Below, piece by piece: positions 43,136 to 54,697 of a DNA stretch of 64,000 nucleotides. The notes under the pieces are model-generated. The model made no database searches. It saw only the letters and a program-made list of their open reading frames with translations, and was not told where the DNA came from. The DNA comes from Bacillota bacterium (GTDB lineage Bacteria > Bacillota > Sulfobacillia > JACIYH01), in assembly GCA_030019365.1 (NCBI GenBank), contig JASEFA010000001.1:62001-126000 (forward strand), written 5' to 3'. The first letter of the stretch is position 1; each line of letters opens with the position of its first letter. The position numbers and the translations under genes are program-made.

Positions 43136-43145
43136 GACGACGGTG

Positions 43146-43907
43146 ATGGGCCTGGGGGAGAGCTACCGCCAGGCCCTGGCCCTGGCCCGGGAAGAACTGG
43201 GGCGGTGGTCCGGGGCGGAACTGGAGAAGCGGCTGGCCGCATCCGGGGCCCGCTGGCTACCCGCGGGGCAGGTGGCCGAGCCGGAGCCAGGTTCGGGCGG
43301 GACCGCTGCCCGCGCCATCGGGCTTTCCTTCCTGGGTCGGCCGCTGGTGGTGACCGTTCCCGACGGCCGGGTGGATTTTCTGCCGGGAGCAAGCGCCGGC
43401 GCGCCAGATGCGCCCGCGCTGGAGGCTGCGCCCGGCGCGGAGGTGGGCGGCCGGGTCGCGTCGGTGACCGGGGCGGAGGCGCCCCAGTGGCTGGCCATCC
43501 TGACGCTCCACTACCTGAACGGTGCCGGGGGTGATCCCCTCAGGGGGGAGCTCATCCCCTTCCGGGATCTGCCCGGGGGGCGGGTGTACGACGCCAACTT
43601 CGAAAAGCGCGTGCGGGCCCGGCTGGTGCGGCGATACGCCCACCAGCCGGCCCTCCTCGTGGAGGCGGGGAAGCGCCTGGGCGGCGAAGCGGCGGACATG
43701 GGCGATGCCGCCGTGCGGCTGCTTCCCTTCCCCCGCGTGCCCGTCTGGATGGTGCTGTGGGCCGCCGACGAAGAGTTCCCGGCCCAGGCCAACGTGCTGT
43801 TTGATGGCAGTGTGGGGTCCTACCTGTGCACGGAGGACGTGGTGGTCCTCTGCGAGCAGATGGTTGCCGAGATGATCAACCTGAGCAGGAAAGAGGTCGG
43901 AAGGTAG
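43146..43907 (+). CDS. DUF3786 protein of the acetyl-CoA pathway cluster
   Basis: 253 residues from ATG 43146 (GTG 43143 also possible). DUF3786 proteins are often encoded within CODH/ACS gene clusters of anaerobes; biochemical function is unknown to me. Visible family pieces are WLAILTLHYLNGAGGDPLRGE, LIPFRDLPGGRVYDANFEKR, LPFPRVPVWMVLWAADEEFP and NVLFDGSVGSYLCTEDVVVL. There is only one Cys (SYLCTED), so it is not itself an Fe-S protein. The position between acsE and the Ni-insertion ATPase suggests a role in maturation or activation. Confidence 0.8.
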   Translation: MGLGESYRQALALAREELGRWSGAELEKRLAASGARWLPAGQVAEPEPGSGGTAARAIGLSFLGRPLVVTVPDGRVDFLPGASAGAPDAPALEAAPGAEVGGRVASVTGAEAPQWLAILTLHYLNGAGGDPLRGELIPFRDLPGGRVYDANFEKRVRARLVRRYAHQPALLVEAGKRLGGEAADMGDAAVRLLPFPRVPVWMVLWAADEEFPAQANVLFDGSVGSYLCTEDVVVLCEQMVAEMINLSRKEVGR

Positions 43908-44673: not shown

Positions 44674-46590
44674 GTGAGCAGGGTGCAGGTGAAGTTCCTT
44701 CCCGACAATGTGACGGTGAGCGTGTCCCCGGGCACCGACCTTTTGCAGGCGGCGGCCCTGGCCGGGCTGGAGATCAAGTCCGGCTGCGGCGGGGAGGGTG
44801 TCTGCGGGCGCTGCCTGGTGGCCATCCGGTCGGGCAAAGCCCGGGTGGGGGAAGGGAGCATGGCCCCCAGGTACCGGCGCCTGGGCTACGTCCTGGCCTG
44901 TCGCACCAGGGTCGACGAGGACCTGGTGGTGGAGATCCCGCCCGAGGCCCGCATCGAGACCGCCCAGCAGGTCCTGCTGGACGCGCCGTCCCGGCTCCTG
45001 CAGGAGAAGGAGACGGATGTGCTGGTCCAGTACGGCCTGCAGCCGGCCTGCCGCAAGTACCCGCTGTCTCTTTCTCCCCCCACCCTGGTGGAGAACGCAC
45101 CCGACCTCACCCGGCTGGTCGCGAGGCTGGTACCGGCCACCGGCTTTTCCGAGATAACCGCAAACCTCGACGTGTTGCGGGAACTGCCCGAGGTCCTGCG
45201 CCGGCAGGATTTCCGGGTGACCTGCACCCTGGCCGACCTGGGGGAGGGGCGGGCGGAAATAGTGCACGTGGAGCCGGGGGAGGCGGTACGACCGGCCTAC
45301 GGCCTGGCCGTGGACATCGGCACCACCACGGTGGCCGCCCTCCTGGTGGACCTGGCTTCGGGGGAGACCCTGGATCGGGTGGGCACGTACAACCACCAGA
45401 TCCGCTTCGGCGATGACGTCATCACCCGCATCGTCCACTCGGTGCGGGAGGAGCGGGGCCTGGAAGAACTGCAGCGGGCGGCGGTGGACACCATCAACGA
45501 GCTGATCGACCTCCTGCTGGCCCGGCACGACCTCTGGCCCACCGATATCCAGGCGGTGGTGGTGGCGGGCAACACCACCATGACCCACCTCTTCCTGGGG
45601 GTTTCCCCCAAGCACCTGCGCCTGGAGCCTTACATCCCGGCGGCAGCCCGCTTCCCGGTGGCTAAGGCGGGCGAGCTGGGCCTGAAGGTGCACCCCGAGG
45701 CTCCCGTGCGCTGCACACCCGCGGTGGCCTCCTACCTGGGCGGGGACATCGTGGCCGGGCTGCTGGTGTCCGACATGCAGCATCTGCCCGGCATCGGGCT
45801 TTACATCGACATCGGTACCAACGGGGAGATGGTCCTGGGCGGGCGCGACTTCCTGGTGGGGTGTGCCTGCTCGGCCGGTCCCGCCTTCGAGGGGTCGGGC
45901 ATAACCTGCGGCATGCGGGCCACAGCGGGCGCCATCGACGGGGTGGCCATCGACCCGGAGACCCGGGAGGCGCGGGTGCACACGGTGGCGGGGGAGAAAC
46001 CCCTGGGCATCTGCGGGTCTGGCCTGGTGGACCTCCTGGCCAAGATGTGGCGCGCGGGGATCATCGACCGGGCCGGCAACTTCCAGCGGGTGCCTTCACC
46101 GCGCCTGCGCTGGGGTGACGAGGGACCCGAGTACGTGCTGGCCTGGCGCCGGGAGTCCGGCAGCGGCCGGGACGTGGTGATCAGTGAGGCCGATGTGAAG
46201 AACCTTTTGCGGTCCAAGGGGGCCGTGTACGCCGGCATCCGCTCCCTGCTCCGTTCGGTGGACATGGAGCTGGACGCCGTGGAGAGGGTTTGGATCGCGG
46301 GCGGTTTCGGAAACTACCTCAACATCAGCGAAGCCGTGCGCATCGGTCTTCTGCCCGACCTACCTCGGGAGAAGTTCGTGTTCCTGGGCAACGCCTCCGT
46401 GAAGGGGGCGCGCCTGGCCCTGCTTTCGGGCCGGGCCTGGCAGGAGGCGGAGAGGGTGGCCCAGGGCATTACCTATCTGGAGCTTTCCGTGGGGAACACC
46501 TTCATGGACGAGTTCGTGTCCGCGCTGTTTTTGCCCCATACCGACCTGCGGCTGTTCCCGTCGGTGGAGCGGGAGGAGGTGGAGCGATGA
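44674..46590 (+). CDS. acsV: Corrinoid activation/reactivation protein (RACo-like, 2Fe-2S plus ASKHA ATPase)
   Basis: 638 residues from GTG 44674. It reduces inactive Co(II) of the corrinoid Fe-S protein back to Co(I) using ATP. The N-terminal 2Fe-2S ferredoxin domain has KSGCGGEGVCGRCLVAI and a distal Cys in VLACRTRV. A linker domain follows (about 95-200), then the ASKHA ATPase domain: AYGLAVDIGTTTVAALLVDL (motif VDIGTTTV), VVVAGNTTMTHLFLG, IDIGTNGEMVLGG, GICGSGLVDLLA and VWIAGGFGNYLNISEAVRIG (motif AGGFGNYLN). It overlaps hdrC by 4 bp. Confidence 0.95.
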   Translation: MSRVQVKFLPDNVTVSVSPGTDLLQAAALAGLEIKSGCGGEGVCGRCLVAIRSGKARVGEGSMAPRYRRLGYVLACRTRVDEDLVVEIPPEARIETAQQVLLDAPSRLLQEKETDVLVQYGLQPACRKYPLSLSPPTLVENAPDLTRLVARLVPATGFSEITANLDVLRELPEVLRRQDFRVTCTLADLGEGRAEIVHVEPGEAVRPAYGLAVDIGTTTVAALLVDLASGETLDRVGTYNHQIRFGDDVITRIVHSVREERGLEELQRAAVDTINELIDLLLARHDLWPTDIQAVVVAGNTTMTHLFLGVSPKHLRLEPYIPAAARFPVAKAGELGLKVHPEAPVRCTPAVASYLGGDIVAGLLVSDMQHLPGIGLYIDIGTNGEMVLGGRDFLVGCACSAGPAFEGSGITCGMRATAGAIDGVAIDPETREARVHTVAGEKPLGICGSGLVDLLAKMWRAGIIDRAGNFQRVPSPRLRWGDEGPEYVLAWRRESGSGRDVVISEADVKNLLRSKGAVYAGIRSLLRSVDMELDAVERVWIAGGFGNYLNISEAVRIGLLPDLPREKFVFLGNASVKGARLALLSGRAWQEAERVAQGITYLELSVGNTFMDEFVSALFLPHTDLRLFPSVEREEVER

Positions 46591-47135
46591 CCCTGGCCGA
46601 GGAGATCAGAGAGCGCAGCGGTCAGGACATTAACTCCTGCTACCAGTGTCACAAGTGCTCGGGAGGCTGCCCGCTTACCTTCGTGTCGGACCTGCCCCTG
46701 AGCGGGGTGATAAGGGTCCTGCAGCTGGGGCTGCAGGACGTGGTGCTGGCCTCCCGCCTGGTCTGGCTGTGTTCCGGCTGTCGCACCTGCTACGAGCGCT
46801 GTCCCAACGGCATCGACGGGGCGCGGGTGCTGGACGCCATCAAGGCCATGGCCAAAGAGGAAGACCGGGTGGAGGATCCCCAGGTGGCGGCCTTTCACGA
46901 CGCCTTCCTGGGCATGGTGAGACGATTCGGGCGCGCCTACGAGCTGGGGATGATGGCCGAGTACAAGATCCGCACCGGCACCTTCACCCAGGACGTCCCC
47001 ATGGGGCTCAAGATGCTGGCGCGGCGCAAGCTGCGCCTCACGCCGTCCCTGGCTCCCGGCCGGCGCGACCTGGCCCGCCTCTTCCGGGAAGGCGTGCGCT
47101 ACCGGAAGCGGCGGGCGGGGGGTGATTTCGCATGA
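46587..47135 (+). CDS. hdrC: Heterodisulfide reductase-like subunit C
   Basis: 182 residues. Two 4Fe-4S motifs, INSCYQCHKCSGGCPLTF and WLCSGCRTCYERCPNGID, define HdrC. It relays electrons between HdrA and the CCG clusters of HdrB. Its ATG overlaps the acsV stop (ATGA) and its stop overlaps the hdrB start, which ties the reductase module translationally to the acs genes. In this setting the partner of HdrBC is probably MetFV rather than a heterodisulfide. Confidence 0.93.
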   Translation: MTLAEEIRERSGQDINSCYQCHKCSGGCPLTFVSDLPLSGVIRVLQLGLQDVVLASRLVWLCSGCRTCYERCPNGIDGARVLDAIKAMAKEEDRVEDPQVAAFHDAFLGMVRRFGRAYELGMMAEYKIRTGTFTQDVPMGLKMLARRKLRLTPSLAPGRRDLARLFREGVRYRKRRAGGDFA

Positions 47136-48082
47136 GCGGTGCGAGCGGTGCGTGCGTGAAGCCAGGAGCGGTTTCCGCGGGCATGGCGGCCGGCGCCGTC
47201 GGGGGCGGGGGTGTCGGCCTGAGCCTGGCGTACTACCCGGGGTGCTCCCTGCACTCGACGGGATGGGAGTTCGACGCCTCCACGCGGGCGGTGTGCGCCG
47301 CCCTGGGCATCGAGCTGCGGGGGGTGCCGGGGTGGACGTGCTGCGGTTCTTCCTCCGCCCACACCCGTCCCGGTCCCCTGGGCCGCGCGCTGGGGCTGCG
47401 CAACCTGGTGCTGGCGGAGGATGCGGGGGAGGAAATGCTCGTCCCCTGCGCGGCCTGCTACAACGTCCTCAAGGGGGCGGATGCCGCCTGGCGGGCCGGT
47501 GAGGAGGAGGCGCGGGAGGCGGCCCACCTGGTGGAGGATAGCCTGGGGCGTCCCTACCGGGGAAAGGTGGCCGTCCGCCACGTGCTGGAGGTGCTGGCCC
47601 TGCCCGGGGTGCTAGAGACCCTCCGGGCCCGGGTGAGGTCTCCCTGGCGGGTCCCGGTGGTGCCTTACTACGGGTGCCTGCTGGCCCGGCCCTCCGCCCA
47701 GGTGGGGTTCGACCGCCCCGAACAACCGGTACTGATGGATCGCATCCTGGAAGCCATCGGGGCCGAGGTGCGGCCCTGGTCGTACAAGACCGACTGCTGC
47801 GGGGCCTCCCTCACCATCTCCCATGCCCCGGTGGTGGAGGTCCTGGTGAACGAGCTCATCAAGCAGGCCGGGCGGGCGGGGGCGCTGGCCCTGGTGACGG
47901 CCTGCCCCATGTGCCACGCCAACCTGGACTCCCGCCAGAGCGTGACGCCGCCCGTGCCCGTGCTCTACATCACGGAGGCGGTGGGCATCGCCCTGGGCCT
48001 GCCCGATGCGGGGCGCTGGCTGGGAGCCCACCTGGTGGACGCCCGTGCCCTGCTCACCCCCGACGGGGAGATGGTATCATGA
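47132..48082 (+). CDS. hdrB: Heterodisulfide reductase-like subunit B
   Basis: 316 residues. Two complete CCG domains that in true HdrB hold noncubane 4Fe-4S clusters: YYPGCSLHSTG, WTCCGSSSAHT, PCAACYNVL, and YYGCLLARP, TDCCGASLTIS, TACPMCHANLD. The first 30 residues are a Gly/Ala-rich extension without a clear role. Translationally coupled on both sides (4 bp overlaps with hdrC and hdrA). No methanogen-type heterodisulfide is expected in a bacterium, so it probably hands electrons on to MetFV. Confidence 0.93.
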   Translation: MSGASGACVKPGAVSAGMAAGAVGGGGVGLSLAYYPGCSLHSTGWEFDASTRAVCAALGIELRGVPGWTCCGSSSAHTRPGPLGRALGLRNLVLAEDAGEEMLVPCAACYNVLKGADAAWRAGEEEAREAAHLVEDSLGRPYRGKVAVRHVLEVLALPGVLETLRARVRSPWRVPVVPYYGCLLARPSAQVGFDRPEQPVLMDRILEAIGAEVRPWSYKTDCCGASLTISHAPVVEVLVNELIKQAGRAGALALVTACPMCHANLDSRQSVTPPVPVLYITEAVGIALGLPDAGRWLGAHLVDARALLTPDGEMVS

Positions 48083-51000
48083 GCGATTTGCCCCGCAACG
48101 CGACGGTGGAGGTGCCGCCCGCGGCCGCGGGCCCGGACGGCAAGCCCCTGGGTTCGGTGCTGGTGGTGGGGGCGGGGATAGCCGGCATGCAGGCCGCTCT
48201 CGATATGGCCTCTTCCGGTTTCCTGGTGCACCTGGTCACCCGGGAGCCCTCCATCGGCGGACGCATGGCCCAGCTCGACAAGACCTTCCCCACCAACGAC
48301 TGCGCCATGTGCCTGCTGGGCCCCAAGATGACCGACTGCCAGAACCACCCCAACATCGTGCTCCACACCATGAGCACCCTGGTGGGCCTGGAGGGCAAGG
48401 CGGGCGACTTCCGCGCTCTGGTCCAAGAGCGGGCCCGCTACGTGGAGGTGCGCCAGTGCACGGGGTGCGGCGACTGCGCCGGTGTCTGCCCCGTGACGGT
48501 GAGGGACCGGTTCAACCTGGGTCTGTCCGAGCGCAAGGCCATCTACAAGCACTTCCCCCAGGCCGTCCCCAACGCTTACGCCATCGAGAAACGGGGGACG
48601 CCCCCCTGCCGGGCCACCTGCCCGGCGGGGTGCAACGTGCAGGGGTATGTGGCCCTCATCTCCCAGGGCAAGTTCCGGGAGGCCCTGGAGGTGGTGCGCC
48701 GCCGCCAGCCCTTCGCCTCCATATGCGGGCGGGCCTGTCACCATCCCTGTGAATCGGAATGCAACCGGGGCCAGTACGACGAGCCCCTTGCCATAGCGGT
48801 GTTGAAGCGGGCCGCCGCCGACTTCGGCTGGTCGGACGAGCCCGAGCTACCCGCCACCCGGCGGGAAGAGCGGGTGGCGGTGGTGGGGGCGGGTCCGGCC
48901 GGCCTGGCCGCCGCCCTGGACCTGGCCCGGGAGGGCTACCGGGTGACGGTGTTCGACGCCGCGCCCGCGCCGGGGGGCATGCTGCGCTCGGCCATCCCCG
49001 AGTACCGCCTGCCCCTGGACCTGGTGGAGAAGGAGGCGGGCTGGATCCTCTCGCACGGCATGGAGTTCCGGGGCGGCGCGAGACTCGGCACCGACTTCTC
49101 CCTGGACGACCTCACCGCCGGGGGTTTCCGAGCGGTGCTGCTGGCCCTGGGTACCCCCAAGGGGCGCGGTCTTCCCATACCGGGCACCGACGGTCCCGGC
49201 GTGGAGCTGGCCCTGCCCTTCCTCAACCGGGCCAAGCTGGGACCCCGGCCCCAGGTGTCGGGCCGGGTGCTGGTGATCGGCGGCGGCAACGTGGCCATGG
49301 ACGCCGCCCGCTGCGCCCTGCGGCTGGGCGCTTCCTCAGTGGCCATGGCCTGCCTGGAGTCCCGGCGCGAGATGCCCGCCCACCCCTGGGAGATCGAGGA
49401 GGCGGAGGAAGAGGGCATTGAGGTCCACACCTCCTGGGGTCCCGTGGAGGTGGTACGCGAGGGCGACCGCGTGCGGGGCGTGCGCCTGCGCCGCTGCACC
49501 CGGGTGTTCGACGAGCAGGGCCGCTTCCGGCCCCAGTTCGACGACTCCGTCAAGACTTACCTGGAGGCCGACCGCGTCATCATCGCCATCGGCCAGGCGC
49601 CCGACGCCGGCTTCCTGCCCGCCCAGGGCGTGGATCTGGACGGGCGCGGTTTCATCGCCGCCGACCCCCTCACCCGGGCCACTGCCCGGCCGGGGGTGTT
49701 CGCCTGTGGCGACGGGGCGGGGGGTAAGCCCTCCATCGTGGATGCGGTGGCGGACGGGCACGAGGCGGCCGAGTCGGTCCGGCGGTTCCTGCAGGGCCTG
49801 GACCTGGCCGAGGGTCGGCCGGCGGCCAAGCCCGAGAAGCTGGGCCCCCCCGAGGGGGTGCCGGTGGAGGCGAAGCGTCGCCTGCGCCAGCGGCTGGCCG
49901 CGGCCGGCGAACGGGTGCAGGACTTCCGCGAGGTGTACCTGGGCTTCACCCCCGAAGAGGCTCAGGAGGAAGCCTCCCGCTGCCTCAACTGCGGCATCTG
50001 CTCGGAGTGCCTGCAGTGCGTGGCCGCCTGCAAGAAGGAAGCTATCAACCACAGCGACGAAACGCGCACGGTGGAGATCCCGGCGGGTGCCGTGATCCTG
50101 GCTCCGGGCATGGGCCTCTTCGAGGCGGAGGGTGCCCTGGAGTACGGCTGGTCGGTGTACCCCAACGTGCTCACCAGCATGGAGTTCGAGCGCTACCTGT
50201 CGGCCACCGGGCCCACGGCGGGCAAGGTGGTGCGGCCTTCCGACGGCAGGCGTCCCCGCCGGGTGGCCTTCATCCAGTGTGTGGGCTCCCGCGACACCTC
50301 CTGTGCCGAGTACTGCTCGGCGGTGTGCTGCATGTACACGGCCAAGGAGGCCATCATCGCCCGCGAGCACGATCCCGGCATCGAGCCCACCGTGTTCTAC
50401 CTGGATTTGCGCGCCTACGGCAAGGGATTCGACCGCTATATCGATCAGGCCAGGTCCCACGGGGTGCGCTACGTGCGCAGCATGATCTCCGGCGTGAAGG
50501 AAGACCCCGTCACCCACAACCTGATCATCCGCTACTGGTCGGGGGAGCGCGTGAAGCAGGAGGAGTTCGACCTGGTGGTGCTGGCGGTGGGGGCGCGGCC
50601 CCCGGCGGGCGCCGCCGAGCTGGCGCGGGCGGTGGGCATCGAGCTGGACGAGTACGGCTTTGCCCGTAGCGACCCCGTCTTTTCTGCCCTGTCCACCCGG
50701 CCGGGGGTGTTCCTGGCGGGGGCCTTCGCCGGACCCCGCGACATCCCCGAGAGCCTGGTGGGGGCCTCGGCGGCAGCGGCCTGCGCCCACGCCCTGCTGG
50801 CGCCGGGGCGGGGCACCCAGGTCACCCCCAAGACCTACCCGCCCGAGCGGGACGTGCGAGGCGAGGAGCCCCGGGTGGGCGTCTTCGTGTGCCGCTGCGG
50901 TATCAACATCGGGGGCGTGGTGGACGTCCCCGCGGTGGTGGAGTTCGCCTCCACCCTGCCCGGGGTGGCGCACGCCCAGGAGTTCACGTACACCTGCTCC

Positions 51001-52533
51001 CAGGACAGCCTGCAGCGCATCCGGGAGGCCATCGCCGAAAAGGCCCTCAACCGGGTGGTGGTGGCCTCGTGCTCCCTGCGCACCCACCAGTCCCTCTTCC
51101 GGGAGACCCTGCGCGAGGCCGGCCTGAACCAGTTCCTGTTCGAGATGGCCAACATCCGCGACCAGTGCTCCTGGGTGCACCGGGACGTGCCCGATGCCGC
51201 CACCGAGAAGGCCAGAGACCTGGTGGCCATGGCGGTGGCCAAGGCCCGCAGCCTGACTGCTCTGCCCATGCAGGCGGTGCCCGTGGTGCAGAAGGCCCTC
51301 ATCATCGGGGGCGGTCCCGCGGGCATGGCGGCGGCCCTGGCCCTCTCCGCCCAGGGGTTCCCCTGCTACCTGGTGGAGCGTTCCGACCGCCTGGGCGGCC
51401 AGATGCTGCGCCTGCGCCGCACTATCGCGGGGCGGAACGTGCCCGTCCTGCTCTCCGACCTGGTGGGACGGGTGATGGAAGATGCGAACATCACCGTGTT
51501 CACCGGGGGGGAGGTGGCCGAGGTGGCCGGTCACCAGGGCCACTTCACCACGCGCCTGCGCCTGCCCGACGGTGAGGTCAGCGTGGAGCACGGCGTGGTG
51601 CTGGTGGCCACCGGGGTGGAGGAGTACCGGCCCAACACTTACCTGTACGGGCAGGACGACCGCGTGCGTACGGTCACCGAACTGGAAGGGCAGCTGGCTG
51701 CCCTGGAGCGGGATGGTTCCCGTCCACCGTGGAAACAGGTGGTGTTCATCCAGTGTGTGGGTTCCCGCGACAGCGAGCGGCCCTACTGCAGCCGGGTGTG
51801 CTGCGCCCAGAGCCTGAAGAACGCCCTGTGGCTGAAGCGGCTGGCCCCCGACTGCCACGTGGTAGTCCTGTACCGCGACATGCGCTCTTACGGTTTCCTG
51901 GAGAAGTACTACCGGGAGGCCCGCTCCCTGGGCATCTCGTTCCTGCCCTACCCCGATGAGACCCCGCCCGTCCTCCGTCAGGCGGAGGGGGAGCTGTGGC
52001 TGGGTACCGTGGATGCCGCCTCGGGGCGGGGCATCGAGCTGCACCCCGACCTGGTGGCCCTGGCCACGGCGGTGGTGCCCGCCTCGGGGGCGAAGGAACT
52101 GGCCTCCCTGCTCAAGGTACCCCTGGGGGAGGGCGGGTTCTTCCTGGAGACCCACATCAAGATGGGTCCCCTGGACTTCCCCTCGGCCGGCATCTACCTG
52201 TGCGGCGGCGCCCACTGGCCCAAGTCGCTGGAGGAGGCTATCTCCCAGGCCCAGGGCGCGGCCTCGCGGGCAGCGGTGGTCCTTTCCAAGGAATCCCTGT
52301 GGGTGGGTGGCGTGGTCTCGGTGGTGGACGAGTCCCGCTGCGCGGGTTGCCTGACCTGCGTGCGCGTCTGCCCCTATCATGTCCCCTTCATCAACGCCCG
52401 CGGGGCGGCCCAGATCGAGGCCGTGCAGTGCCAGGGGTGCGGCATGTGCGCGGCCGAGTGCCCGGCCCGCGCCATCCAGCTGGGCAACTACCGCTTCGAC
52501 CAGATGGAGGCCAAGCTGGGTGGCCTGCCCTAG
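48079..52533 (+). CDS. hdrA: Giant HdrA fusion with an inserted GltD/NfnB-like NAD(P)H module
   Basis: 1484 residues from ATG 48079. Residues 1-170 are an HdrA N-terminus (FAD motif VVGAGIAGMQAALDM, QCTGCGDCAGVCPV). From about 171 to 635 a complete GltD/NfnB/DPYD-type module is inserted: CRATCPAGCNVQGY, CGRACHHPCESECNRG, first dinucleotide site VAVVGAGPAGLAAAL, second VLVIGGGNVAMDAAR, end FACGDGAGG. HdrA resumes at CLNCGICSECLQCVAACKKEAIN and runs to about 900. A second HdrA unit starts near 930 (VGVFVCRCGINIGGVVDV, FAD motif IIGGGPAGMAAALAL). Two 4Fe-4S motifs (CAGCLTCVRVCP, CQGCGMCAAECP) end the protein. It likely takes electrons from NAD(P)H and splits them by flavin-based bifurcation. Confidence 0.92.
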   Translation: MSDLPRNATVEVPPAAAGPDGKPLGSVLVVGAGIAGMQAALDMASSGFLVHLVTREPSIGGRMAQLDKTFPTNDCAMCLLGPKMTDCQNHPNIVLHTMSTLVGLEGKAGDFRALVQERARYVEVRQCTGCGDCAGVCPVTVRDRFNLGLSERKAIYKHFPQAVPNAYAIEKRGTPPCRATCPAGCNVQGYVALISQGKFREALEVVRRRQPFASICGRACHHPCESECNRGQYDEPLAIAVLKRAAADFGWSDEPELPATRREERVAVVGAGPAGLAAALDLAREGYRVTVFDAAPAPGGMLRSAIPEYRLPLDLVEKEAGWILSHGMEFRGGARLGTDFSLDDLTAGGFRAVLLALGTPKGRGLPIPGTDGPGVELALPFLNRAKLGPRPQVSGRVLVIGGGNVAMDAARCALRLGASSVAMACLESRREMPAHPWEIEEAEEEGIEVHTSWGPVEVVREGDRVRGVRLRRCTRVFDEQGRFRPQFDDSVKTYLEADRVIIAIGQAPDAGFLPAQGVDLDGRGFIAADPLTRATARPGVFACGDGAGGKPSIVDAVADGHEAAESVRRFLQGLDLAEGRPAAKPEKLGPPEGVPVEAKRRLRQRLAAAGERVQDFREVYLGFTPEEAQEEASRCLNCGICSECLQCVAACKKEAINHSDETRTVEIPAGAVILAPGMGLFEAEGALEYGWSVYPNVLTSMEFERYLSATGPTAGKVVRPSDGRRPRRVAFIQCVGSRDTSCAEYCSAVCCMYTAKEAIIAREHDPGIEPTVFYLDLRAYGKGFDRYIDQARSHGVRYVRSMISGVKEDPVTHNLIIRYWSGERVKQEEFDLVVLAVGARPPAGAAELARAVGIELDEYGFARSDPVFSALSTRPGVFLAGAFAGPRDIPESLVGASAAAACAHALLAPGRGTQVTPKTYPPERDVRGEEPRVGVFVCRCGINIGGVVDVPAVVEFASTLPGVAHAQEFTYTCSQDSLQRIREAIAEKALNRVVVASCSLRTHQSLFRETLREAGLNQFLFEMANIRDQCSWVHRDVPDAATEKARDLVAMAVAKARSLTALPMQAVPVVQKALIIGGGPAGMAAALALSAQGFPCYLVERSDRLGGQMLRLRRTIAGRNVPVLLSDLVGRVMEDANITVFTGGEVAEVAGHQGHFTTRLRLPDGEVSVEHGVVLVATGVEEYRPNTYLYGQDDRVRTVTELEGQLAALERDGSRPPWKQVVFIQCVGSRDSERPYCSRVCCAQSLKNALWLKRLAPDCHVVVLYRDMRSYGFLEKYYREARSLGISFLPYPDETPPVLRQAEGELWLGTVDAASGRGIELHPDLVALATAVVPASGAKELASLLKVPLGEGGFFLETHIKMGPLDFPSAGIYLCGGAHWPKSLEEAISQAQGAASRAAVVLSKESLWVGGVVSVVDESRCAGCLTCVRVCPYHVPFINARGAAQIEAVQCQGCGMCAAECPARAIQLGNYRFDQMEAKLGGLP

Positions 52534-52599: not shown

Positions 52600-53085
52600 G
52601 TGGACGACGGAACCGAAGCAGTGACAGTCGAACGTCCCGGCGGCAGCAGTGCTGGCAGCGAGCCGTCCTTTGAGCCCAGGATCGTGGCCTTCTGCTGCTA
52701 CTACTGCGCTTATTCCGCGGCCGACCTGGCCGGGTCCATGCGCCTGCAGTACCCACCCAACGTACGCCTGATCGAGGTGCCCTGCAGCGGCCGGGTGGAC
52801 CCCGCCCTGCTGCTCCGGGCCCTGGAGGAGGGGGCGGATGGCGTATACGTGGCCGGCTGCATGGAGGGAGACTGTCACTTCCAGCAAGGTAACTTTCGGG
52901 CCAAGCGCCGGGTGGGCGCCATCAAGAAGCTCCTCTCCCAGATCGGCTGGGAGCCGGAGAGGGTGGAGATGTACAACGTGCCCGCCTCCGACGGCGCCCG
53001 CTTCGCGCAGGTGGCCCGCGAGTTCACCGAACGCATCAGGGAAGTGGGACCCAACCCCGCCCGGGGGAAGAAGGTGAGATCGTGA
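52600..53085 (+). CDS. mvhD: MvhD-family 2Fe-2S electron carrier subunit
   Basis: 161 residues from GTG 52600, with GGAGGTGG upstream. MvhD proteins link HdrA to an electron-donating or -accepting partner. Cys-rich features are VAFCCYYCAYSAADLAG at the N-terminal side, VPCSGRVDP, and VAGCMEGDCHFQQGNFRAKR with its conserved Cys pair. The start is 66 bp after hdrA and the stop overlaps metV by 4 bp. In this operon it probably connects HdrA to MetV/MetF, as proposed for the Moorella complex. Confidence 0.93.
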   Translation: MDDGTEAVTVERPGGSSAGSEPSFEPRIVAFCCYYCAYSAADLAGSMRLQYPPNVRLIEVPCSGRVDPALLLRALEEGADGVYVAGCMEGDCHFQQGNFRAKRRVGAIKKLLSQIGWEPERVEMYNVPASDGARFAQVAREFTERIREVGPNPARGKKVRS

Positions 53086-53750
53086 TCATAGCCGAACAAA
53101 AGCCCATCCCCGAGATAGCGGCCCAGGTGCGCCAGTGCCAGAAGGTGCTGGTGCTGGGGTGCGGCGGCTGCGTCACCGTGTGCCAGGCCGGCGGTGAAAA
53201 GGAGGCGGAGATCCTGGCCTCGGCCCTGCGCCTGATGGGGGCCCGGGAGGGCTGGGACACCGCCTTCGACAGCATGGCCATCACCCGCCAGTGCGACCCC
53301 GAGTACCTGGACGGCATCGCCAGGAAGGTGACAGAGTACGACGCCATCCTCTCCCTGGGGTGCGGGGTGGGGGTCAACTACCTGGCCGAGCACTTCCCCC
53401 GCACCTGGGTGGTGCCGGGGCTGAACACCAAGGGGGCGGGAGCCACCCTGGAGGCGGGCGTATGGGAAGAAAGGTGCCTGGCCTGCGGGGACTGCATCCT
53501 GCACCTGACGGGCGGTATCTGCCCCCTCACCCGCTGCTCCAAGAGCCTGCTCAACGGTCCCTGCGGCGGCTCCCAGGCGGGAAAGTGCGAGATCTCCCCG
53601 GACGTGGCCTGCGGGTGGCAGCTCATCTACGACCGCCTGAGGCAACTCGACCGGCTCGACCTCCTGCTGGAGATCAGAGACCCCAAGGACTGGTCGCGGA
53701 CCCATGACGGCGGTCTGCGCCGGGTGGTGAAGGAGGAGGCCCGGCTATGA
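53082..53750 (+). CDS. metV: MetV, accessory subunit of methylene-THF reductase
   Basis: 222 residues from GTG 53082. The N-terminal part LVLGCGGCVTVCQAGGEKEA and LSLGCGVGVNYLAEHFP, plus the C-terminal Cys-rich segment ERCLACGDCILHLTGGICPL, TRCSKSLLNGPCGGSQAGKC, match the MetV / methylene-THF reductase C-terminal domain family that binds Fe-S clusters and/or zinc. It is reported to raise MetF activity when co-produced with it in Moorella. Overlaps both mvhD and metF by 4 bp. Confidence 0.93.
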   Translation: MIIAEQKPIPEIAAQVRQCQKVLVLGCGGCVTVCQAGGEKEAEILASALRLMGAREGWDTAFDSMAITRQCDPEYLDGIARKVTEYDAILSLGCGVGVNYLAEHFPRTWVVPGLNTKGAGATLEAGVWEERCLACGDCILHLTGGICPLTRCSKSLLNGPCGGSQAGKCEISPDVACGWQLIYDRLRQLDRLDLLLEIRDPKDWSRTHDGGLRRVVKEEARL

Positions 53751-54697
53751 GCCAGAACGGGTGCAAGACGGAAAGCCGGCTAGAGCGGGTACTGCGGGAG
53801 GGTCACTTCGCCGTCACCGCCGAGGTGGGCCCCCCCAAGAGCGCCTCTTCCAAGGGGATATCGCGCCACGCGGCGGCCATCAAGGAGGTGGCCGACGCCA
53901 TCAACCTCACCGACAACCAGACCGCCATCGTGCGCCTGTGCAGTCTGGCCGCCGCCGCGCACGTCATGCAGGCCGGCGGCGAGCCGGTGATGCAGATCAC
54001 CTGCCGGGACCGCAACCGTATCGCCATCCAGTCCGACCTGCTGGGCGCCTACAGCCTGGGCGTGCGCAACGTCCTCTGTCTGACCGGGGACCACATCAGC
54101 TTCGGCAATCATCCCCAGGCCCGCACCGTGTACGACCTGGATTCCGTCCAACTGGTGCGGCTGGTGCACGACATGCGGGAGAACCGCCGCTTCCAGAACG
54201 GTGAGGAGATCAAGGTGGCCCCGCCCCGCTTCTTCGTAGGCGCCGCGGAGAACCCCTTCGCCGACCCGGTGGAGTTCCGGGCCCTGCGCTTGGGCAAGAA
54301 GGCGAAGGCCGGGGCCGACTTCATCCAGACCCAGGCCGTATTCGACCTGGACCGCTTCGGCCAGTTCATGCGGGTGGTGCGGGACATGGGCCTGGACGAG
54401 CAGGTCTTCATCCTGGCCGGTATCGTGCCCACCAAATCGGCGAAGGCCCTCGAGCGCACCGCCACCGTGCCCGGCATGGTGGTGCCCCAGGAGCTCATCG
54501 ACCGGATGAAGGGAGCAGCCGACCAGGAGAAGGAAGGCGTAGCCATCGCCGTGGAGCTCATCTCCCGCCTGCGGGAAATCCCGGGCGTGCGCGGCGTGCA
54601 CATCATGGCCATCGCCTGGGAGGAAATCGTCCCCGAAATCGTCAAGGAGGCCGGCCTGCTCCCCCGTCCCCGCCTGGAGGTCGCCAGCCCCGCCTAG
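53747..54697 (+). CDS. metF: Methylenetetrahydrofolate reductase
   Basis: 316 residues. It reduces 5,10-methylene-THF to 5-methyl-THF with a flavin (FMN in the Moorella enzyme). Visible TIM-barrel motifs are FAVTAEVGPPKSASSKGI, VADAINLTDNQTAIVRLCSL, EPVMQITCRDRNRIAIQSDL (motif CRDRNR), GVRNVLCLTGDHISFG, GADFIQTQAVFDLDRFGQFM (motif FIQTQ) and VHIMAIAWEEIVPEIV. It is last in the operon; its product is the substrate of AcsE encoded upstream. Activity probably needs MetV and the HdrCBA-MvhD module. Confidence 0.96.
   Translation: MSQNGCKTESRLERVLREGHFAVTAEVGPPKSASSKGISRHAAAIKEVADAINLTDNQTAIVRLCSLAAAAHVMQAGGEPVMQITCRDRNRIAIQSDLLGAYSLGVRNVLCLTGDHISFGNHPQARTVYDLDSVQLVRLVHDMRENRRFQNGEEIKVAPPRFFVGAAENPFADPVEFRALRLGKKAKAGADFIQTQAVFDLDRFGQFMRVVRDMGLDEQVFILAGIVPTKSAKALERTATVPGMVVPQELIDRMKGAADQEKEGVAIAVELISRLREIPGVRGVHIMAIAWEEIVPEIVKEAGLLPRPRLEVASPA

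Follow-up and report, generated by a model that had tools for sequence, protein, structure and literature searches.

A GltD-type module lies within the ferredoxin domain of a two-unit HdrA encoded next to metVF in a Bacillota bacterium

The hdr-met locus and the domains of HdrA

The window, by which we mean the whole stretch of 64,000 nucleotides that was analyzed, contains genes in the order hdrCBA-mvhD-metVF that adjoin genes for CODH/ACS (Table 1). A Moorella-type set of this kind had been suggested in an earlier note on this DNA, and indeed its genes were found around hdrA, such that the hdrC-hdrB-hdrA-mvhD-metV-metF set of an Hdr-type (type IV) methylene-THF reductase is present. The hdrA frame on the forward strand consists of 1484 open codons, and its start overlaps the end of hdrB by 4 bases. 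A DUF3786 protein (window 43143-43907) is encoded between the CODH/ACS genes and a gene for a CooC-like ATPase, all in one gene run.

Table 1. Genes of the locus and features of the encoded HdrA (positions are those of the window).
Feature	HdrA residues	Position	Strand	Basis
hdrC		46587..47135	+	tblastn, 44% to HdrC of L011, plus reading frame
hdrB, two CCG domains		47132..48082	+	domain search
hdrA, two complementary HdrA units, GltD-type module inside unit 1		48079..52533	+	domain/PDB comparisons, AlphaFold, Foldseek
Unit 1 first part, FAD-binding TrxR-like start	28-172	48160..48594	+	alignment to 5odc 147-291
GltD/StnC-type NAD(P)H:FAD module	173-640	48595..49998	+	PDB/Pfam matches, AlphaFold, Foldseek; exact absence in ~1010-aa relatives
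Lys243, StnC Lys170 equivalent	243	48805..48807	+	alignment
Nucleotide-specificity stretch, ACLESRREMPA	424-434	49348..49380	+	alignment; acidic residue vs YRR in NADPH-type relatives
Unit 1 second part, TrxR-like FAD domain	641-925	49999..50853	+	5odc alignment
Unit 2: N-terminal cluster domain, TrxR-like domain (Lys1247), without inserted ferredoxin domain	929-1484	50863..52530	+	
C-terminal two-cluster ferredoxin domain	1414-1466	52318..52476	+	domain search
mvhD, FlpD domain		52600..53085	+	domain search
metV		53082..53750	+	PF12225
metF		53747..54697	+	PF02219

Pfam, NCBIfam and PDB comparisons were used to delimit the domains, with the solved HdrA 5odc as the reference for HdrA units. 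In unit 1, residues 28-172 match 5odc 147-291 and residues 641-855 match 5odc 293-511. The unit comprises the FAD domain, with Glu704/Lys756 as the equivalents of 5odc E356/K409, and the two clusters (Cys127/130/133/137 and Cys641/644/647/651) that belong to the inserted ferredoxin domain, and lacks the N-terminal domain and the C-terminal ferredoxin domain. In unit 2, residues 929-1101 match 5odc 2-174 and residues 1315-1480 match 5odc 478-646, so that the N-terminal and C-terminal parts, the latter with the ferredoxin domain that serves as the MvhD-side port in solved HdrA, are both present. Since there is no cysteine between residues 1096 and 1226, the inserted ferredoxin domain is missing, and the second unit is not the full HdrA unit that it had been taken for. 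Each unit supplies what the other one misses, and the protein is therefore a complementary pair and not one and a half HdrAs; the same complementary loss between units has been described for Moorella HdrA (PMC9012536). Cys78 corresponds to 5odc Cys197 and is conserved in 139/139 ungapped relatives; as the N-terminal cluster of one HdrA is completed by Cys197 of its partner in the solved structure, the two-unit fusion probably mimics an HdrA dimer. For an insert-free two-unit relative, the predicted fold is a single body (pLDDT 87.9, pTM 0.90).

The inserted module separates the [4Fe-4S] motifs of the unit-1 ferredoxin domain from each other, thereby splitting that domain, and brings along Fe-S cysteines of its own at positions 177, 181, 216-228, 635 and 638. 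Residues ~173-640 match GltD-type chains (9bov, E 7e-95; 9n5u, 1e-83; StnC 8oh5, 6e-79; also NfnI 5jca), and the Pfam domains Fer4_20 and Pyr_redox_2 were recognized here. An AlphaFold model of residues 1-1090 reached a mean pLDDT of 87.6, with values of ~90 or above over most of 173-580, and when this model was submitted to Foldseek, the insert retrieved NfnABC and StnC and the flanks retrieved HdrA. Frame, domain and PDB matches, AlphaFold and Foldseek agree on a 1484-residue HdrA fusion with a whole, folded GltD-type module, as had been claimed from the letters alone; the limits given at the time, 171-635, shift to ~173 at the start and close to 640 at the end.

Coenzyme pocket and electron path

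An acidic residue at the critical position of the coenzyme pocket is the usual mark of NADH use in this fold. At residues 424-434, 54 of the 89 inserts available belong to an acidic class (CLES and similar), 34 carry YRR, and 1 is unclassified. The five aligned solved relatives of the insert all have YRR, and the NADPH enzymes among them include StnC and NfnI. We therefore predict that inserts with an acidic "CLE" pocket use NADH and those with a "YRR" pocket NADPH. The assignment was taken from the end of the second strand because the GxGxxG/A rule published for NAD versus NADP in type III HdrA (PMC12054007) fails to separate the classes, inserts of both kinds mostly having GGGNVA or GGGNTA. 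The window copy has CLES, as have, alternatively with CLEK, nine proteins that we call Moorella-like. This label denotes a numbering match to the published M. thermoacetica HdrA and not an assignment to Moorella: all nine are exactly 1487 residues long when counted from a plausible start (ATG in 8/9) and have E696, K750, E1204 and K1246. The pocket shared with these proteins supports an NADH port in the window copy, given that Moorella HdrA is reported to oxidize NADH: its NADH:benzyl viologen activity is given as 190 U/mg, compared with 0.5 U/mg for Sporomusa HdrA, a protein described without a GltD domain, albeit in different preparations (PMC9430772).

The same genome encodes a second full-length HdrA with a GltD insert (C3:365507-369964; L089:8962-13500, minus strand) that shares 56% overall identity with the window copy. 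Its pocket reads YYRRSPEEM and falls into the YRR class. No hdr, mvhD or met partner genes were found near it within the 17 kb fetched.

Glu/Lys pairs occur in both TrxR-like domains of the window protein (E704/K756 and E1203/K1247, the alignment of the unit-2 Glu column being less certain). E704/K756 is invariant in 144/144 two-unit HdrAs while the unit-2 lysine drifts, being replaced in 23/139, and the insert-bearing unit 1 therefore appears the likelier bifurcating site. From architecture, predicted fold, gene context and the residues described, we consider the protein, with a probability of about 0.8, to be the HdrA subunit of a Moorella-type (type IV, Hdr-type) methylene-THF reductase in which a StnC/NfnABC-type insert converts the ferredoxin port into an NADH port that feeds the unit-1 FAD. 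The electron path, the preference for NADH and the direction that we infer are as follows. NADH would reduce the FAD of the inserted module, from where electrons would travel over the module's Fe-S clusters and across the split ferredoxin domain to reach the unit-1 FAD with its Glu704/Lys756 pair. There they would be combined or divided, the participants being MetVF and a third partner that could be reached via HdrCB or via the C-terminal ferredoxin domain and MvhD. As NADH sits at the low-potential port of HdrA, we favor a scheme in which NADH would be the low-potential, methylene-THF the mid-potential and the third partner the higher-potential participant. The earlier proposal that NAD(P)H could enter at the insert is also supported, in that HdrA contains a folded NAD(P)H/FAD module within a Moorella-type gene set, and the insert is the likely point of entry. 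According to the literature, transfer of electrons from NADH to methylene-THF has not been demonstrated even for Moorella.

With NADH in the low-potential place, the scheme fits the published idea of confurcation better than bifurcation to a low-potential acceptor. Confurcation, proposed for Moorella (PMC13040438), would mean that NADH and menaquinol jointly reduce methylene-THF, or the reverse. It matches NADH at the low-potential port as well as the presence of a headless complex-I-like cluster in this genome, but must remain tentative here, as known menaquinone pathway genes were not found in the 98%-complete genome: neither MqnA nor MqnD was detected, and there was no MenD above the cut-off. 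Three UbiA-family proteins are encoded, and Rnf was not found in this genome. The complex-I-like gene cluster (L191:639-10993, on C9) has no NuoEFG recognized beside it, as described for Moorella. Two large proteins of the same genome with a GltD-type C-terminal half (L090:5424-8588 and L091:7357-10395) are, judged by eye from the sequence starts, encoded beside NuoG-like genes, in the case of L090 also beside a NuoE-like gene, and probably represent further NAD(P)H-linked bifurcating complexes.

In another scheme, which the earlier note had offered and which was reportedly put forward for Moorella in 2014, the module would take up NADH and the electrons would be bifurcated, with methylene-THF and a low-potential acceptor such as ferredoxin as recipients. 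This reading is compatible with HdrA being a known bifurcating subunit and with the conservation of E704/K756. It is nevertheless doubtful, because the insert splits and occupies the very domain through which solved HdrA reduces ferredoxin, ferredoxin has been reported not to be the Moorella acceptor, and the menaquinol-confurcating alternative has been published.

Still less probable is an inserted module that acts as an additional bifurcation center of the NfnB type, as suggested for the insert of ANME-1 HdrA (PMC9012536). Homology to NfnB and an arginine kept beside the flavin (R310 in 88/88 inserts) speak for such a center; no NfnA partner gene was seen in the operon, and residue 243 speaks against it. 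NfnB has a glutamate, which marks its bifurcating flavin region, where StnC, whose flavin has lost bifurcation, has Lys170. The window protein has Lys243 in place of this glutamate near the proximal cluster, just as it has CLES in place of the YRR pocket of NfnB, and across 88 inserts the residue-243 position is occupied by Lys (84/88) or Arg (4/88). In StnC, a Lys170 to Arg variant kept half of the activity. The designation "NfnB-like" thus holds for the fold and not for the marker residue of the flavin region, which is in the StnC state, and the match of Lys243 to the non-bifurcating StnC makes it more likely that the insert serves as a linear NAD(P)H input than as a second bifurcating center. 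We therefore reject the latter as improbable. That the frame 48079-52533 is an artefact of assembly or gene calling in high-GC DNA, where both strands carry long spurious frames, is excluded for practical purposes by a 92%-identical protein (residues 1-1484) from an independent assembly (L009) and by many further assemblies with full-length relatives at 45-62% from several phyla.

Distribution and separate history of the insert

The comparison set consisted of 144 distinct two-unit HdrAs, the window protein and 143 relatives. Whether the insertion point is shared, a question raised along with the original claim, was answered by the alignment: the same insertion occurs in 89 of the 144 (~480 residues at the site, in one case shortened to 357), 54 have just 12-29 residues at this place, and 1 further row is irregular. 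Insert-free relatives of ~1010 aa join cleanly at the same point. By row count, ~46 of 399 genomes of the same phylum carry a near-full-length insert-bearing copy, and the insert-free ~1010-aa form occurs in many other genomes of this phylum. Named matches came from Desulfosporosinus, Thermincola, Carboxydocella, Dehalococcoidia, Planctomycetota and Thermoplasmatota. In Lokiarchaeota, insert-free forms dominate, and the two units also occur as separate neighboring genes (~434 and 563 aa).

Several variations on this theme were encountered. Lokiarchaeota loci (L071, L076-L078, L082) encode a two-unit HdrA of ~1155 aa without GltD, with an mvhD match overlapping the frame and metV and metF directly following. 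In L127, L131 and L148, a two-unit hdrA gene with the insert and one without it are arranged in tandem, their frames overlapping or abutting. GltD-inserted and other HdrA paralogues in Thermoplasmatota (L033, L058, L060, L063) are accompanied by mvhD and hdrC, and metVF was not found there. Proteins of ~900 aa from Bacillota (L169, L173, L178) with GltD at residues 153-632 are probably single-unit (type III) HdrAs, of which a 2025 survey of methane-metabolizing archaea counted nine known sequences. The GltD insert in the two-unit HdrA of L126:5001-9086 is ~100 residues shorter, has no readable nucleotide motif and is perhaps a decaying module.

Insert and scaffold do not share the same history. 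When the insert is left out, the second copy is most similar to the window copy (60% identity) and its clade; within the insert, the two copies share only 45% identity, and the insert of the second copy is 60-62% identical to those of Carboxydocella and Thermincola-like proteins. Likewise, L019 and L011 share 68% identity outside and 44% inside the insert. In a sliding comparison, the change-over fell at ~176 and 590-640, which are the insert edges. The scaffold tree unites 16 Bacillota proteins with a support of 100; the insert data reject this group (log-likelihood 100 lower, p-AU 8e-5), and the scaffold data in turn reject the insert-tree group (log-likelihood 337 lower, p-AU 3e-59), the p-values being optimistic as the groups were chosen after seeing the trees, although the size of the conflict is hard to explain that way. 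The scaffold group was kept when trees were calculated separately for unit 1 and unit 2, and the conflict persisted when the nucleotide site was removed from the insert tree. This conflict leads us to reject the idea that the insert arose once and was then simply inherited vertically.

The scaffold tree shows at least 5 changes between insert-bearing and insert-free states on its well supported branches and 9 by parsimony, nearly all HdrA inserts group together when compared with 20 other GltD proteins, and for the pocket class, 7 changes are counted on the insert tree and 13 on the scaffold tree. We read this as pointing to few origins of the insert, after which it was repeatedly lost and exchanged at a fixed junction, with some switches in place. 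Given the strong tree conflict and the breakpoints at the insert edges, it appears fairly probable that the GltD insert is an exchangeable cassette that was lost, regained or swapped several times at one ferredoxin-domain junction, thereby switching one and the same bifurcating scaffold between NADH and NADPH as the coenzyme that feeds it, and that some genomes, including the one studied here, keep one of each. A strict link between pocket class and metVF was not upheld: where enough flank was available, metVF lies beside 32/37 CLE, 13/25 YRR and 7/49 insert-free genes, counts that are uncorrected for relatedness.

In acetogen energetics, it has yet to be explained how NAD(P)H is coupled to the formation of methyl-THF in Hdr-type methylene-THF reductases. 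On nearly the same scaffold, the family provides natural pairs of proteins that differ in whether the module is present or in whether the pocket is acidic or basic. Such pairs allow direct tests of two claims, one identifying the insert as the NAD(P)H port and the other predicting that an exchanged insert changes the coenzyme.

Comparison with known systems

The core architecture was already published for M. thermoacetica in 2022, and the window HdrA is a further member of the kind described. The type IV HdrA of M. thermoacetica (1487 aa, 3 FAD, 1 NAD(P)H, E696/K750, E1204/K1246; PMC9430772; Mock et al. 2014) agrees with it in length class, in the layout of two units with GltD in the first, in both E/K pairs and in the hdrCBA-mvhD-metVF order; no qualitative difference was found, the sequence differs, and the present genome adds an orphan YRR copy. 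Inserts of the GltD/NfnB type are also known from archaeal HdrA (PMC9012536, PMC12054007). The type III HdrAs of ANME-1 and Bathyarchaeota (PMC12054007; HdrA9-11 of PMC9012536) likewise have such a module in the ferredoxin domain, but are described with a single TrxR-like unit and other gene partners, whereas the protein studied here has two fused complementary units and is followed by metVF.

The closest solved relatives of the insert are StnC of the Sporomusa Stn transhydrogenase and the GltD subunits of NfnABC (8oh5, 9bov, 9n5u). They share the lysine at the cluster-ligand position, but belong to other bifurcating complexes and have a YRR instead of a CLE pocket; StnC, in fusion with a NuoG-like domain, feeds a NuoF-type module. 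Insert-free HdrAs, such as those of Sporomusa ovata and the ~1010-aa relatives from Lokiarchaeota and Bacillota, have the same two-unit scaffold, sometimes beside metVF (L071, L130), and differ by the absence of the GltD module. New here are the contrast between an invariant Glu/Lys pair in unit 1 and a drifting lysine in unit 2, the lysine in place of the NfnB glutamate, an insert whose history differs from that of its scaffold, and two pocket classes that both occur in one genome. Neither exchange of the module nor two pocket classes were found described in the literature searched.
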